Source: Oceanimonas pelagia
GTDB taxonomy: Bacteria; Pseudomonadota; Gammaproteobacteria; Enterobacterales; Aeromonadaceae
Reading direction: 5' to 3'
Length of the DNA: 64,000 bases
Assembly: GCF_030849025.1 (NCBI RefSeq)
Contig: NZ_CP118224.1
Location: 2,030,001-2,094,000 of the forward strand
Shown: positions 27,015 to 54,062 of the stretch, one piece after another
Position numbering within the stretch: position 1 is the stretch's first letter
Layout of the letters: every line of letters begins with the position of its first letter
Notes under the pieces: generated by a model
Databases searched by the model: none
Told to the model about the DNA's origin: nothing
What the model saw: the letters and a program-made list of their open reading frames with translations, nothing else
Translations under genes and position numbers: made by a program

Positions 27015-27108
27015 CGGCTTCAAACGCTTCAGCTACTTTACCGCTGACCACCTATTGGCATGGCGGTTCCGGTATGGCTACAATGGCTTCCTATCGGCAA
27101 CGCCGATG

Positions 27109-27175
27109 CTTCGTATAACCTCACTGATAAGGGGTGAGGGTCTCTACCTGGAGCCGTAAATTCCAGATTACGAAG
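27109..27175 (+). ncRNA. Purine riboswitch aptamer, adenine type
   Basis: P1 is CTTCGTA (27109-27115) pairing with TACGAAG (27169-27175). P2 is CCTCAC/GTGAGG with loop TGATAAGG, J2/3 reads GTCTCTACC, and P3 is CTGGA/TCCAG with loop GCCGTAAAT. These match the purine riboswitch core. The specificity base in J3/1 (GATTACG) is T, which pairs with adenine; guanine aptamers have C there. The 3' strand of P1 overlaps a hairpin at 27173-27200, which competes with a 14-bp pairing of 27187-27200 with 27223-27236, so a switch is plausible. The following gene is an adenine deaminase, which fits the ligand. Confidence 0.92.
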
Positions 27176-27266
27176 AGAAAGTGCATAGCGCTTTTCTCTT
27201 TGTACATCGTCAATAGTCAGGCAAGAGAAAAGCGCTTGTTGATATCCCTTGAATGGAGACACAAGC

Positions 27267-28283
27267 GTGAACCAAACCACCTTTATTCAGCAACTCCCGA
27301 AAGTTGAACTGCATCTGCACATCGAAGGCACGCTGGAGCCGGAAATGATGTTCGAGCTGGCGCAACGCAACCAGATAGCCCTGCCGTTTAACACGCCGGA
27401 AGCCGTGCGCGCCGCCTATCAGTTCAGCAACCTGCAATCCTTCCTCGACATCTACTATCAGGGTGCCAGGGTTCTGATCCACGAGCAGGACTTTTACGAT
27501 CTGACCTGGGCCTATTTGCTGCGTTGCCAGGCAGATAACGTCATCCATACCGAAATCTTCTTTGACCCGCAAACCCATACCGAGCGGGGCATTGCCTTTG
27601 ACACCGTGCTCAACGGCATTGACCGGGCACTGCGTGACGGCCGGGAGCAGCTGGGCATCAGCAGTCACCTCATCATGTGCTTTCTGCGCCACCTGGACGA
27701 AGACAGCGCCTTTGACACCCTGCGCATGGCACTGCCGCACAAGGACAAAATTGTGGCCGTCGGCCTCGACTCGTCGGAGTTGGGCCATCCGCCGGAGAAA
27801 TTTGAGCGCGTGTTTCAGGAGGCGATTGGTCACGGCTTTCTGACCGTGGCCCATGCCGGAGAAGAAGGGCCGGTTGAGAACATTCACAACAGCCTTGAGC
27901 TGCTGAGCATTTCACGCATCGATCATGGTGTGCGCTGTGTGGACGATTCGGCCTTGGTGGAGAAACTGGCCCAACGTCGCGTGCCCCTCACCGTTTGCCC
28001 GCTTTCCAATACCAAGCTGAAGGTGTTTGACCATATGGATCGGCACAACATCGTTGAACTGCTGCGCCGAAATGTCTGTGTGACCATCAACTCGGATGAT
28101 CCGGCCTACTTTGGCGGCTACATGACCGATAACTTTCAGGCGGTAGCCAATAGCCATGCACTGACGCCGCAAGAACTGGCACAATTTACCCTCAATGCCA
28201 TTGAGGCCAGTTTTATCGACGACGCCCACAAGCAGCGGCTGACACGGCAAGTGCAGGACTTTATGCACCAGGCACTCGCCTAA
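27267..28283 (+). CDS. add: Adenine deaminase of the Aah1 type (adenosine deaminase superfamily)
   Basis: Metal-dependent deaminase of 338 residues starting at GTG 27267, with TGGAGA 7 nt upstream. Zinc ligands and catalytic residues are visible: His 16 and His 18 ([14 protein letters not shown]), His 196/Glu 199 (VAHAGEEGP), His 220 (RIDHG) and the Asp pair 277-278 ([11 protein letters not shown]). Segments such as '[12 protein letters not shown]', 'GLDSSE' and '[10 protein letters not shown]' resemble the fungal Aah1 adenine deaminase more than E. coli Add. Conversion of adenine to hypoxanthine is therefore the better call, supported by the adenine-type riboswitch. Automatic annotation may call it adenosine deaminase. 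Confidence 0.88.
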
Positions 28284-34486: not shown

Positions 34487-35461
34487 CTACGCAGCAATCA
34501 CATTGCCGGCCAGCCAGCCGGTGTAGGCCAGGTACACCGCCAGCAAAAAGGCACCTTCAACGCGATTGATGCGTCCCGGGCGGCCACGAAAGCCAAAGCC
34601 CAGCACGAACAGCGACAGGGTCAGCGCTATCATCACCACAAAGTCGCGGTTGATCACTTCCGACACCACCGCCAGCGGGTGAATGATGCCGGCCAGCCCC
34701 ACCACCGCCAGGGTATTGAACAGGTTGGAGCCAATCACGTTGCCCAGGGCCAGATCGTGTTCATTCTTGCGAATGGCGGCAATGGAGGAGGCCAGCTCGG
34801 GCAGCGAGGTGCCAATGGCGACGATGGTCAGACCAATGATCAGATCACTCACGCCAAAGGCCTGGGCCACATTCACCGCTCCCCATACCAGAAAACGCGA
34901 GCTGATGATCAGCAGCACCAGACCGGCCACCAGCCAGAACAGCGCCTGTTTCAGGCTCATGGTATTTTCACCCAGCTCCTGCTCCTGTTCGCTGGCCATG
35001 CTGTCGTTGCCGTCACGCAGACCCTGACGAATGCTCCAGGCCATCAGCAGCACGAACACCACCAGCAACACCATGGCATCGGTACGGGCAAGCCAGCCGT
35101 TCCACAGCAGGCTGAGCGACAGCAGGGTGATCAGCAACAGTATGGGCAGCTCCTTGCGCAGCACCTGAGAGTGCACGGCAATGGGACTGATCAGTGCCGT
35201 TACCCCGAGAATGAGGCCAATATTGGCAATATTGGAGCCATAGGCATTCCCCAGGGCCAGCCCGGGGTTACCTTCCAGCGCCGCAATAATGGACACCACA
35301 ATTTCCGGGGCCGAGGTACCGAACCCCACGATCACCATGCCAATCAGCAAGGGGGGCATACCGGCATAACGGGCGGTGGCCGAAGCACCGTCCACAAAGC
35401 GGTCGGCACTCCATACCAGCACCGCAAGGCCCAGCACGATGGCGGCAACAGACATCAGCAT
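34487..35461 (-). CDS. Calcium/sodium antiporter family (CaCA, YrbG-like) transporter
   Basis: 324 residues, about ten TM helices in two inverted halves. The alpha-repeat motifs of the CaCA superfamily are visible: 'IVGFGTSAPEIVVSIIAALEGN' in the first half and 'IVAIGTSLPELASSIAAIRKNE' in the second, each with GTS-P-E, followed by 'ALGNAYGSNIANIGLILG' and 'ALGNVIGSNLFNTLAVVG'. An acidic loop lies between the halves. The gene sits behind a probable manganese riboswitch, so Mn2+ or Ca2+/Mn2+ export is likely. The Shine-Dalgarno can be sequestered in a CCCCC/GGGGG hairpin. Confidence 0.88.
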   Translation of the reverse strand: MLMSVAAIVLGLAVLVWSADRFVDGASATARYAGMPPLLIGMVIVGFGTSAPEIVVSIIAALEGNPGLALGNAYGSNIANIGLILGVTALISPIAVHSQVLRKELPILLLITLLSLSLLWNGWLARTDAMVLLVVFVLLMAWSIRQGLRDGNDSMASEQEQELGENTMSLKQALFWLVAGLVLLIISSRFLVWGAVNVAQAFGVSDLIIGLTIVAIGTSLPELASSIAAIRKNEHDLALGNVIGSNLFNTLAVVGLAGIIHPLAVVSEVINRDFVVMIALTLSLFVLGFGFRGRPGRINRVEGAFLLAVYLAYTGWLAGNVIAA

Positions 35462-35470
35462 AATGAAATC

Positions 35471-35486
35471 CCCCCTTGAACGGGGG
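35471..35486 (-). promoter_or_regulatory. Hairpin masking the antiporter ribosome-binding site
   Basis: On the minus strand CCCCC-GTTCAA-GGGGG is followed by GATTTCATTATG. The G run is the Shine-Dalgarno for the antiporter, so the hairpin would block initiation. This fits translational control by the upstream riboswitch. Confidence 0.6.
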
Positions 35487-35583
35487 TGGAAAGCAGAAAC
35501 AACAGGCTAGACAGATTCATAAGCGCTCTTGGGGCGGGACCAAAACACCGAAGACGCCTCCACCTCCCGCCCGGTTGGTGGCT

Positions 35584-35693
35584 GCGTCTCGAGTCTCATC
35601 AATCCACAGGACACTACTGCCATAAGCCTTCGGCTCAGAGATTGTTGACAGCAGTTTCGGCATTCACCGAACGATTACTCCCTCAAGAGGCGC
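35584..35693 (-). ncRNA. Probable yybP-ykoY manganese riboswitch
   Basis: The minus strand carries the conserved order GAGGGAGTA, a hairpin (TTCGGTGAATGCCGAA), CTGTCAACA, a variable hairpin with ATGGCAGTAG, then TGATGAGAC. The outer P1 strands GCGCCTC..GAG (35681-35693) and CTCGAGACGC (35584-35593) pair. Downstream GCGTCT at 35552-35557 can pair with AGACGC of P1, and a GGGCGGGA/TCCCGCCC hairpin (35532-35572) follows, so a mutually exclusive expression platform is visible. This matches the RF00080 class, which binds Mn2+. It is recognised by motif, not by a covariance search. Confidence 0.75.
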
Positions 35694-35729
35694 ATATTGT
35701 GACAGCTTGCGACGGGCAAGAAAAGGACC

Positions 35730-35810: not shown

Positions 35811-37301
35811 TCACAAACTCGGAAAGGCGAAGTCCGAAGCCTGGTGGCTGGCGCGCTCGGGCCATTTCTGGGTAATGGTCTTGCGCCGGGTGTAAAAGCG
35901 CACGGCATCGGGACCGTAGGCGGCCAGATCACCAAACAGCGAGCGCTTCCAGCCGCCAAAGCTGTGATAGGCCACGGGCACCGGCAGCGGCACGTTAATG
36001 CCGACCATGCCCACCTCGATGTGATCGCCAAACAGCCGCGCCGCTTCGCCGTCCCGCGTGAACAGGCAGGTGCCGTTGCCGTATTCATGGGCGTTGACCA
36101 GGGCAATGGCGTCTTCCAGGCTCTCGACCCGCACCACGCACAGCACCGGACCAAAGATTTCTTCCCGGTAGATGCGCATGTCGGGGGTCACCCGGTCGAA
36201 CAGGCAGCCACCGATAAAGTAGCCGCCTTCGTGGCCCGGCACCGTCACACCCCGGCCGTCCACCACCAGGGCGGCCCCGGCCTGCTCGCCGTCTGCAATG
36301 TAACCGGTAATTTTCTCCAGGTGCTCCCTGCTTATTACCGGGCCCATGTCGTGGCCGCCTTCCGTACCGGGGCCAATGTTGAGCATACGGATTTTTTCGC
36401 TCAGTTTTGCCACCAGGGCATCAGCCACCGCCTCGCCCACGCACACCGCCACCGAGATGGCCATGCAGCGCTCGCCACAGGAACCAAAGGCCGCCCCCAT
36501 CAGGGCACTGACCGCATTGTCGAGATCCGCATCGGGCAGCAGCACCGCGTGATTCTTGGCGCCGCCCAACGCCTGCACCCGCTTGCCACGGGCCGTACCC
36601 CTGGCATAAATGTGCTCGGCCACCGGGGTGGAGCCCACAAAGCTCACCGCCTTTACCCCCTTGTGCTCCAGCAGTGCCTCCACTGCCTCGCGCCCGCCCT
36701 GCACCACATTGAGCACCCCCCTGGGCAGACCGGCTTCTTCCAGCAGTTCGGCAATCAGCAAGGACGCGCCGGGATCCTTTTCCGAGGGCTTGAGCACAAA
36801 ACAGTTACCGCAGGCGATGGCCATGGGGAACATCCACAGCGGCACCATGGCGGGAAAATTGAACGGGGTAATACCGGCCACCACCCCCAGGGGCTGAAAG
36901 TCAGACCAGGCGTCGATGTCGGGGCCCACGTTACGGGTAAATTCCCCTTTCAGCAGGCCCGGCACACCGCAGGCGTATTCCACGTTTTCCATACCCCGCT
37001 GCAGCTCGCCGCGGGCGTCTTCCAGGGTTTTGCCGTGCTCCTCGGCAATCAGCCGGCAAATATCGTCGGCGCGCTCTTCCAGCAGCTGACGATAACGGAA
37101 CATCACCCGTGCCCGCTTGGCCGGGGGGGTATCGCGCCAGGCGGGAAAGGCGGCCTCGGCGGCGGCCACCGCCTGCGCCACCGTGCCGGCATCGGCCAGG
37201 GCCACTTGCGCACAGACCGCACCGGTGGCCGGGTTAAAGACATCCAGCCACTGACTGCCGCGGTGATGTTCGCCGTTGATCAGGTGAGGAATAATATTCA
37301 T
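35811..37301 (-). CDS. mmsA: CoA-acylating methylmalonate-semialdehyde dehydrogenase
   Basis: Aldehyde dehydrogenase superfamily enzyme of 496 residues that converts methylmalonate or malonate semialdehyde plus CoA to propionyl- or acetyl-CoA. The catalytic Cys is C279 in '[11 protein letters not shown]', an arrangement typical of MMSDH (the usual general-base Glu is absent, as in the CoA-dependent members). '[16 protein letters not shown]' and '[17 protein letters not shown]' are further hallmarks. It lies 79 nt downstream of an omega-amino-acid transaminase on the same strand, suggesting beta-alanine breakdown to acetyl-CoA. Confidence 0.93.
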
Positions 37302-53864: not shown

Positions 53865-53880
53865 GTCCGCACAATTTGTT

Positions 53881-54062
53881 TTTCCCTGGGGTGTTCGTCA
53901 GTGGGTGGCGTCCCTGAGCCGATATCAACAGCACAGGAATCCCGCGTTGTTCGCTATTGAGCATGCTCGGCCCAGACCGAGACGCCTGCGGCGGGTACCG
54001 GGCTTCCGCCTTGAACCGACGGGTTCAAGGACTAACACTCGCAACGGCACTCCGGGGACCCA
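53881..54062 (+). ncRNA. ssrS: 6S RNA
   Basis: About 182 nt between zapA and fau. Conserved blocks of gammaproteobacterial 6S RNA are clear: GTGTTCGTCAG near the 5' end, CCCTGAGCCGATAT, GAGCATGCTCGG with CCGAGACGCCT, CCTTGAACC...GGGTTCAAGG and CACTCCGGGG near the 3' end pairing with CCCTGGGGTG. This forms the long imperfect duplex with a central bubble that mimics an open promoter and binds sigma70 RNA polymerase. The exact ends are approximate. Confidence 0.93.

Follow-up and report, generated by a model that had tools for sequence, protein, structure and literature searches.

A divergent yybP-ykoY-type leader with a conserved overlapping open reading frame precedes a CaCA-family antiporter gene in Oceanimonas pelagia and its relatives

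Introduction

Which metal ion is sensed by the leader of a gene annotated as a calcium/sodium antiporter, and how would the signal reach the antiporter itself? The question is raised by a minus-strand locus in a 64,000-nucleotide stretch of the Oceanimonas pelagia genome (contig NZ_CP118224.1, assembly GCF_030849025.1), which is the DNA that we examined and which we refer to as the window. A sequence-only reading of this locus had proposed that the leader is a Mn2+ riboswitch of the yybP-ykoY type, that it controls the antiporter through a hairpin masking the ribosome-binding site at the start codon, and that the better-known targets of such an RNA are mntP, alx/terC, and P-type ATPases. For orientation, a 2026 paper names four main types of Mn efflux protein, namely CDF, MntP, UPF0016, and P-type ATPases (PMC13274385). 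We describe here the gene, its leader, the relatives that share it, and a two-step form of control that the comparisons suggest.

Results

The antiporter gene and its surroundings

The antiporter gene (34487..35461, minus strand) encodes a protein of 324 amino acids with a PF01699 domain match in profile searches. The protein scores 265.8 bits against TIGR00367 (curated cut-off 179.65), which bears out the family assignment made earlier. Against NF008005, the PRK10734 equivalog that we take to be YrbG, it scored 300.8 bits, below the curated score of 432, and we did not assign it there. Its best solved relative is NCX_Mj (E 7e-41). When the two are aligned, the ion ligands of the Ca2+/Na+ exchanger are retained, the sole exception being D240 of NCX_Mj, which corresponds to N249. 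This asparagine is invariant in 30 of 30 antiporter rows, leader-bearing and leaderless alike. Judged by its sequence, the ion choice of the antiporter cannot be read, and the export of Mn2+, or of both Mn2+ and Ca2+, that had been suggested for it is plausible.

A genome search for MntP in O. pelagia found none, and the genome encodes one TerC protein and one TIGR00367 protein. The RF00080 match returned by a whole-genome scan (56.7 bits) precedes a UPF0016 (MneA-like) gene, which we identified from its two EIGDKTQ motifs; the same family motif is also described in PMC7380456.

Between the antiporter gene and its upstream neighbor, an aldehyde dehydrogenase gene (35811-37301), lies a minus-strand leader of ~230 bases. 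A consensus promoter scan of the leader region gave no match. A candidate −10 element, CACAAT with an upstream TG, is located at 35696..35701 (minus strand), and is mostly kept across the 22 leaders described below, with variation at its third base; transcription would start at ~35693, the first base of helix P1. Elsewhere in the window, on the plus strand, we observed a 6S RNA (53880-54062, 112 bits) and a purine riboswitch (27091-27190, 68.4 bits) ahead of an ORF (27249-28283) that by eye resembles adenosine deaminase; the switch resembles the adenine-responsive riboswitch that precedes add in Vibrio.

The leader recurs in related genomes

The antiporter was searched for in 61 genomes (that of O. 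pelagia and 60 relatives) and was present in 49. Upstream regions were compared for 30 of these 49 loci, 23 of them from the same genus, including our own. The survey of related CaCA loci that the sequence-only reading had called for recovered the leader in 22 of the 23 same-genus genomes, own included, and the 22 leaders align well with one another. The motifs GGGAGTA, GTCAACA, and TGAGAC occur exactly and in order within 400 bases upstream of the antiporter at 21 of the 23 loci, whilst one further locus, L023, has CCAACA in place of the exact motif. The single same-genus locus with an antiporter and no riboswitch leader is that of Oceanisphaera pacifica (L021, also L153). GGGAGTA was found upstream of none of the seven more distant antiporter loci. 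These seven and L021, all leaderless, are excluded from the pair counts given below. Named matches located on shared contigs put the leader-bearing group among Oceanimonas, Oceanisphaera, and Zobellella. As a separate observation, a c-di-GMP-I riboswitch (71.7 bits) lies near the CaCA gene of one leaderless relative (L030, 1010-1094, minus strand).

The aptamer is a divergent homologue of yybP-ykoY

In the window, the three motifs that had been noted are all present in the stated order on the minus strand, with GGGAGTA at 35682-35676, GTCAACA at 35649-35643, and TGAGAC third. The predicted Mn2+ aptamer spans 35584..35693 (minus strand) and comprises the closing helix P1 (35693-35682 with 35593-35584), which had also been recognized, together with P2 (35671-35666 with 35661-35656), P3 (35655-35646 with 35622-35613), and P4 (35637-35632 with 35628-35623). 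Across the window, no match to RF00080 was found at the gathering score of 45 bits, a figure that is a curator's reporting threshold and not a structural feature, and the leader is absent from the output of the whole-genome scan at E 0.001. However, a 501-base search scored it at 27.9 bits (E 7.1e-6). Across relatives, where the comparison took in 27 of the 30 loci, RF00080 matched 16 of the 22 leader-bearing loci at E ≤ 0.05 (best 34.2 bits; none of the 22 at 45 bits), and none of the five leaderless loci. The lack of an RF00080 match had been named beforehand as grounds for rejecting the riboswitch; literally, that is the outcome at the gathering score, yet for a homologue as divergent as this one it is misleading.

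The homology is best seen with a covariance model, R1, made from the 22 antiporter-leader aptamers only. Among 295 genomes of the order, R1 has matches in 11. Besides the antiporter leaders themselves, it recovers the MneA switch of the O. pelagia genome (E 4.8e-9), which exceeds the RF00080 cut-off, as well as MneA switches from the same genus (in five of the seven same-genus genomes that it matched) and from other families, at whole-genome E values of 8e-9 to 3e-13, and one switch upstream of a different CaCA gene (G110). With strict filters, an R1 search of 369 genomes of the class returned only the own genome and one UPF0016 case. R1 also matched four of 80 named CaCA loci, these being the best 80 of 575 confirmed, and the fourth of the matches is in Hahella sp. 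HN01. Homology of the aptamer to yybP-ykoY, as judged from these sequence comparisons, is close to certain.

The core of the aptamer is conserved. Every one of the 22 leaders has L1 GGGAGUA, L3 CAACA, and the 3′ GAGAC; in L023 the U that precedes CAACA is replaced by C. In the Xanthomonas structure, Mn2+ coordination and loop docking are ascribed to GGA of L1, CAACA of L3, and the 3′ GA (PMC6754395), and by our own mapping of positions these bases are kept in all 22 leaders. The likely ligand is Mn2+. We also considered that the aptamer might sense Ca2+, or Ca2+ and Mn2+ alike, with the antiporter serving as a Ca2+ exporter. The annotated family of the antiporter would fit such a role, and L3 of the window aptamer is one base longer than the Rfam consensus, so that its metal preference could differ; moreover, the mgtA aptamer of S. 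pneumoniae is reported to bind Ca2+ more tightly than Mn2+, with Mn2+ activating more (PMC9495176). We nevertheless hold this to be decidedly unlikely, given that the adenosine providing the Mn2+-specific N7 contact (PMC6754395) is invariant in the leaders, and that expression of the CaCA gene BP3410 of Bordetella pertussis is reported not to respond to Ca (PMC8546581).

Mutually exclusive helices and the predicted ribosome site of a leader ORF

As read by eye in most of the 22 leaders, the predicted ligand-free fold is made up of P2, P3, P4, a long hairpin (hairpin A), and a closing helix in which the P1 5′ strand and loop Gs pair with CCC...AAGAG. In this 60-pair structure 94.8% of alignment cells are paired, changes on both sides occur in 20 of the 60 pairs, and none of 500 shuffles scored as high on any of five measures. 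Hairpin A (35547..35595, minus strand; approximately 35595-35576 with 35564-35547), which takes up the P1 3′ strand, has both-sided changes in 12 of its 21 pairs and is part of the minimum-energy fold. Its 3′ arm is the downstream GCGTCT to which the ability to open P1 had been attributed. Within the aptamer, compensatory changes are found in one of six pairs of P2, four of ten of P3, and one of six of P4. For P1, 76.4% of cells are paired and four of ten pairs are compensatory, a count that 48 of 500 shuffles reached; its number of pair types was reached by 435 of 500 and its covariation score by one of 500. The outer P1 pairs are mostly broken outside the subgroup of the window, and P1 is the least convincing of the helices.

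A further pairing, helix B (35532..35572, minus strand), joins GGGCGGGA (35572-35565) with TCCCGCCC (35539-35532); its two strands pair in all 22 leaders, and seven of its eight pairs are invariant. Helix B crosses hairpin A and is therefore predicted to form only when P1 is held; the two cannot easily coexist. It was also present in all 15 CaCA and MneA leaders inspected, which include those of Hahella, f2/g6, f13/g17, g4, and MneA genes. Its sequence differs among them, its start lies 25 to 32 bases past that of the GAGAC/AAGACC motif, and 11 of these leaders have an exact hairpin A arm, at least six pairs long, that crosses it. That crossing helices A and B occur ahead of MneA genes too suggests a common expression platform. 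Helix B, mostly crossed by hairpin A, can be seen in the Mn2+ switch leaders L039, L041, L042, L046, and others.

The closing helix of the ligand-free fold is where gating would take place, since the AAGAG (35526..35530, minus strand) that is covered there by CUCUU from the 5′ side of P1 is the Shine-Dalgarno sequence of a short leader ORF, whose ribosome site thus falls, by position and by predicted accessibility, inside the switching region. In unforced folds, the marker pair of hairpin A has a probability of at least 0.98 in 21 of the 22 leaders (0.01 in L003) and the openness of this Shine-Dalgarno is 0.35 or less in all 22. When P1 is forced, the hairpin A marker drops to zero and helix B reaches at least 0.5 in 20 of 22 (the window, L002, being at 0.32 and L006 at 0.00). 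Predicted openness then rises in 21 of 22 and falls in L011, but attains at least 0.5 in just seven leaders, with the window at 0.42, so that the opening predicted upon P1 formation is partial. At equilibrium the ligand-free ensemble is favored by 3.3 to 19.7 kcal/mol, and the choice between states would consequently have to occur during transcription.

The compensatory changes in these mutually exclusive helices, along with the conserved metal-site residues, speak against the leader being a functionless, decayed riboswitch left by a duplicated mneA leader. Such decay would be in keeping with a score under the Rfam cut-off and with the missing leader of L021, and we consider it most improbable.

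The hairpin that had been proposed to mask the ribosome-binding site, CCCCC/GGGGG, can be located (35486-35471, minus strand), inside the leader ORF and over the antiporter's Shine-Dalgarno. However, in none of the 22 leaders do folds of this stretch clearly surpass those of dinucleotide-shuffled sequence (z-scores −1.95 to +1.52; window −0.11), which makes the hairpin a weakly supported element, and we rejected it as the main gate on account of these folds in relatives. Two terminator-like matches coincide with this hairpin and a third (35567-35550) lies in hairpin A. Together with the BP3410 transcript, which is reported to end within its riboswitch when Mn is lacking (PMC8546581), they might be taken to indicate a transcriptional attenuator like that of BP3410 in place of a translational switch. 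Three such sites compare with 2.0 expected in shuffles, though, and neither hairpin A nor helix B is followed by a long U-run, the lack of which led us to discard control by a terminator. An attenuator seems to us very unlikely.

The leader ORF overlaps the antiporter start

The unannotated leader ORF (35455..35520, minus strand) has 21 codons (MNLSSLLFLLSTPVQGGISLC). It begins with ATG at 35520, and its TGA stop overlaps the antiporter start within ATGCTGA. Its frame is conserved: the ORF that starts at the first ATG past helix B terminates at +7 of the antiporter in all 22 leaders, its length ranging from 20 to 50 codons and its stop being TGA, TAA, or TAG. The 534 in-frame codons include no stop, whereas the other two frames include 22 and 18; these other frames are also open in six and nine of the 22 rows, and because the rows are related the counts do not amount to an independent-trial probability. 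Over 14 close pairs, codon positions 1, 2, and 3 show 52, 31, and 71 differences, and the codon differences comprise 37 synonymous and 75 nonsynonymous changes, which implies that the peptide is under little constraint. Hahella sp. HN01 has the aptamer, hairpin A, and helix B together with an unrelated 34-codon leader ORF that ends in an ATGA overlap, so the arrangement persists through a complete change of peptide. Retention of the overlap while the peptide changes points to selection for the overlap and not for the peptide.

As a control, we counted out-of-frame ATG ORFs of at least 15 codons that end at +1 to +10 of the main start. With main starts estimated by script, they were found in seven of 102 other Mn2+-switch leaders (3/60 MneA, 2/22 MntP, and 2/20 CaCA); both CaCA instances are in g4, and the other six g4 leaders lack one. 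This overlap control strengthens the case for the proposed arrangement, whereas the P1 shuffles and the partial opening weaken it. Two mntP leaders (L132 and L137, f19) each carry a short ORF that opens with ATG, encodes a similar N terminus (MFTGGS...), and has a 4-base overlap with the estimated mntP start; these could be a second case of a leader ORF.

These results alter the idea that the switch controls the antiporter directly. The proposed type of aptamer is supported, but the switch does not appear to act at the antiporter's own start, and the Shine-Dalgarno that is sequestered belongs to the leader ORF. The antiporter's own Shine-Dalgarno (GGGGG/GGAGG) appears strong in many rows and the hairpin over it is no better than shuffles, so independent initiation is possible. 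The switch might then be real and the leader ORF incidental, with the antiporter starting at its own site and Mn2+ acting through transcript stability, Rho, or direct access; in E. coli, mntP is reported to be under both Rho and a translational riboswitch (PMC11647493). We think this unlikely, as the overlap and frame are kept in every leader despite the range of ORF lengths, Hahella keeps the overlap in another form against the low background of the control, and it is the leader ORF, not the antiporter, that the anti-Shine-Dalgarno faces. From the sequence conservation, coupling of the leader ORF to the antiporter is likely.

CaCA genes recur downstream of predicted Mn2+ switches

RF00080 gave 102 matches in 101 of the 295 genomes of the order, and the genes downstream of all 102 (30 loci and 72 retrieved regions) were sorted into 60 UPF0016, assigned by similarity to the MneA of the O. 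pelagia genome, 20 CaCA, and 22 others. Pfam found Na_Ca_ex in all 20 CaCA proteins and Mntp in all 22 others. Twelve of the CaCA proteins match at E ≤ 1e-57 (11 in f2/g6 and one in f13/g17), and the remaining eight, at E 1e-9 to 1e-13, all belong to g4 (Aeromonas), whose protein is a divergent Na_Ca_ex. Given that the strict scan filters miss the window's own leader, the counts from these scans are too low. With one in five census matches preceding a CaCA gene and the published case of BP3410 (PMC8546581), a CaCA target is not without precedent. The g4 loci (L049-L053, L055, L056, and L059) have a divergent CaCA without the usual GSN motifs, an over-cut-off Mn2+ riboswitch, and a similar helix B, and are possibly of the BP3410 type.

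On a tree of the antiporters, the leader label requires four changes, at least two of them forced; the tree includes three of the 20 census CaCA proteins and none from g4, its branches are long, and its bootstrap values have not settled. Hahella sits in a fork that the tree leaves unresolved, and joint transfer of leader and gene is therefore indistinguishable from a separate gain.

Discussion

We consider it probable that the leader is a divergent yybP-ykoY Mn2+ translational ON switch that acts on the short leader ORF, and through it, by translational coupling, on the CaCA antiporter. When there is little Mn2+, hairpin A would capture the P1 3′ strand, leaving CUCUU of the P1 5′ strand and the loop Gs to pair with CCC...AAGAG and so hide the leader-ORF Shine-Dalgarno. 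Mn2+ bound during transcription would dock L1 and L3 and stabilize P1; with P1 held, hairpin A would be blocked, helix B would form, and the Shine-Dalgarno would be freed. Ribosomes translating the leader ORF would terminate at the TGA in ATGCTGA, opening the local structure, and would reinitiate at the antiporter ATG. The antiporter would then export Mn2+, and possibly Ca2+ as well. What sequence and comparison establish is the homology of the aptamer, the mutual exclusion of the helices, and the conservation of the overlapping ORF, whereas Mn2+ binding, synthesis of the peptide, and the export of Mn2+ that is plausible for this antiporter are inferred. To the stricter proposal, in which the leader ORF is the direct target, the exporter is produced only by termination-reinitiation, and the TIGR00367-type CaCA protein is a Mn2+ exporter, we would give even chances.

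If the proposal is correct, Mn2+ sensing would be relayed via one round of translation, the range of known manganese riboswitches would gain one with a relay at the level of translation, and the CaCA Mn2+ export known from BP3410 would extend to the common TIGR00367 branch, whose members are annotated as calcium/sodium antiporters. In a limited search of the open-access literature, we found no report that combines a Mn2+ riboswitch with a leader ORF; PMC9426467 describes a copper leader ORF and, in the text available, only cites riboswitches. For a Mn2+ riboswitch upstream of a gene for a CaCA protein or sodium-calcium exchanger, the same search yielded BP3410 (PMC8546581) as the sole case. 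A CaCA target of such a switch is thus already known from that publication, and it is the CaCA subfamily, the translational platform, and the leader-ORF coupling that, within the limits of that search, appear new.

In Bordetella pertussis, as in the window, a Mn2+ riboswitch lies ahead of a CaCA-superfamily antiporter. The yybP-ykoY switch there is reported to drive BP3410, with Mn inducing and Ca having no effect, and strains without functional BP3410 are reported to contain about five times more Mn (PMC8546581). The two systems differ in that the BP3410 switch is described as acting through a premature stop of transcription, whereas the window switch is predicted to be translational, and the terms "uORF" and "open reading frame" are absent from the text of PMC8546581. 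The proteins differ too, the TIGR00367 antiporter of the window being 23% identical to the switch-linked CaCA protein of a g4 genome, which we took, on an assumed equivalence, to represent the BP3410 type. The mneA switch of the O. pelagia genome (L001/L046) shares the aptamer core and the positions of hairpin A and helix B, but at 56.7 bits it is above the Rfam cut-off and by the control test it lacks an overlapping leader ORF. The RF00080 matches of f2/g6, f13/g17, and g4 (Aeromonas) likewise stand directly upstream of CaCA genes, which are of types other than that of the window. A likeness for the overlap is offered by the B12 riboswitch of M. tuberculosis ppe2, which faces a leader ORF overlapping the main gene, and ppe2 is reported to be made mainly by termination-reinitiation (PMC11260477). 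That system, however, has B12 as its ligand, an OFF switch, and an AUGA overlap, and its RNA and gene are unrelated to those of the window. Set beside these systems, the arrangement described here, found in a group of marine bacteria, appears to run a known circuit for manganese detoxification in two steps.
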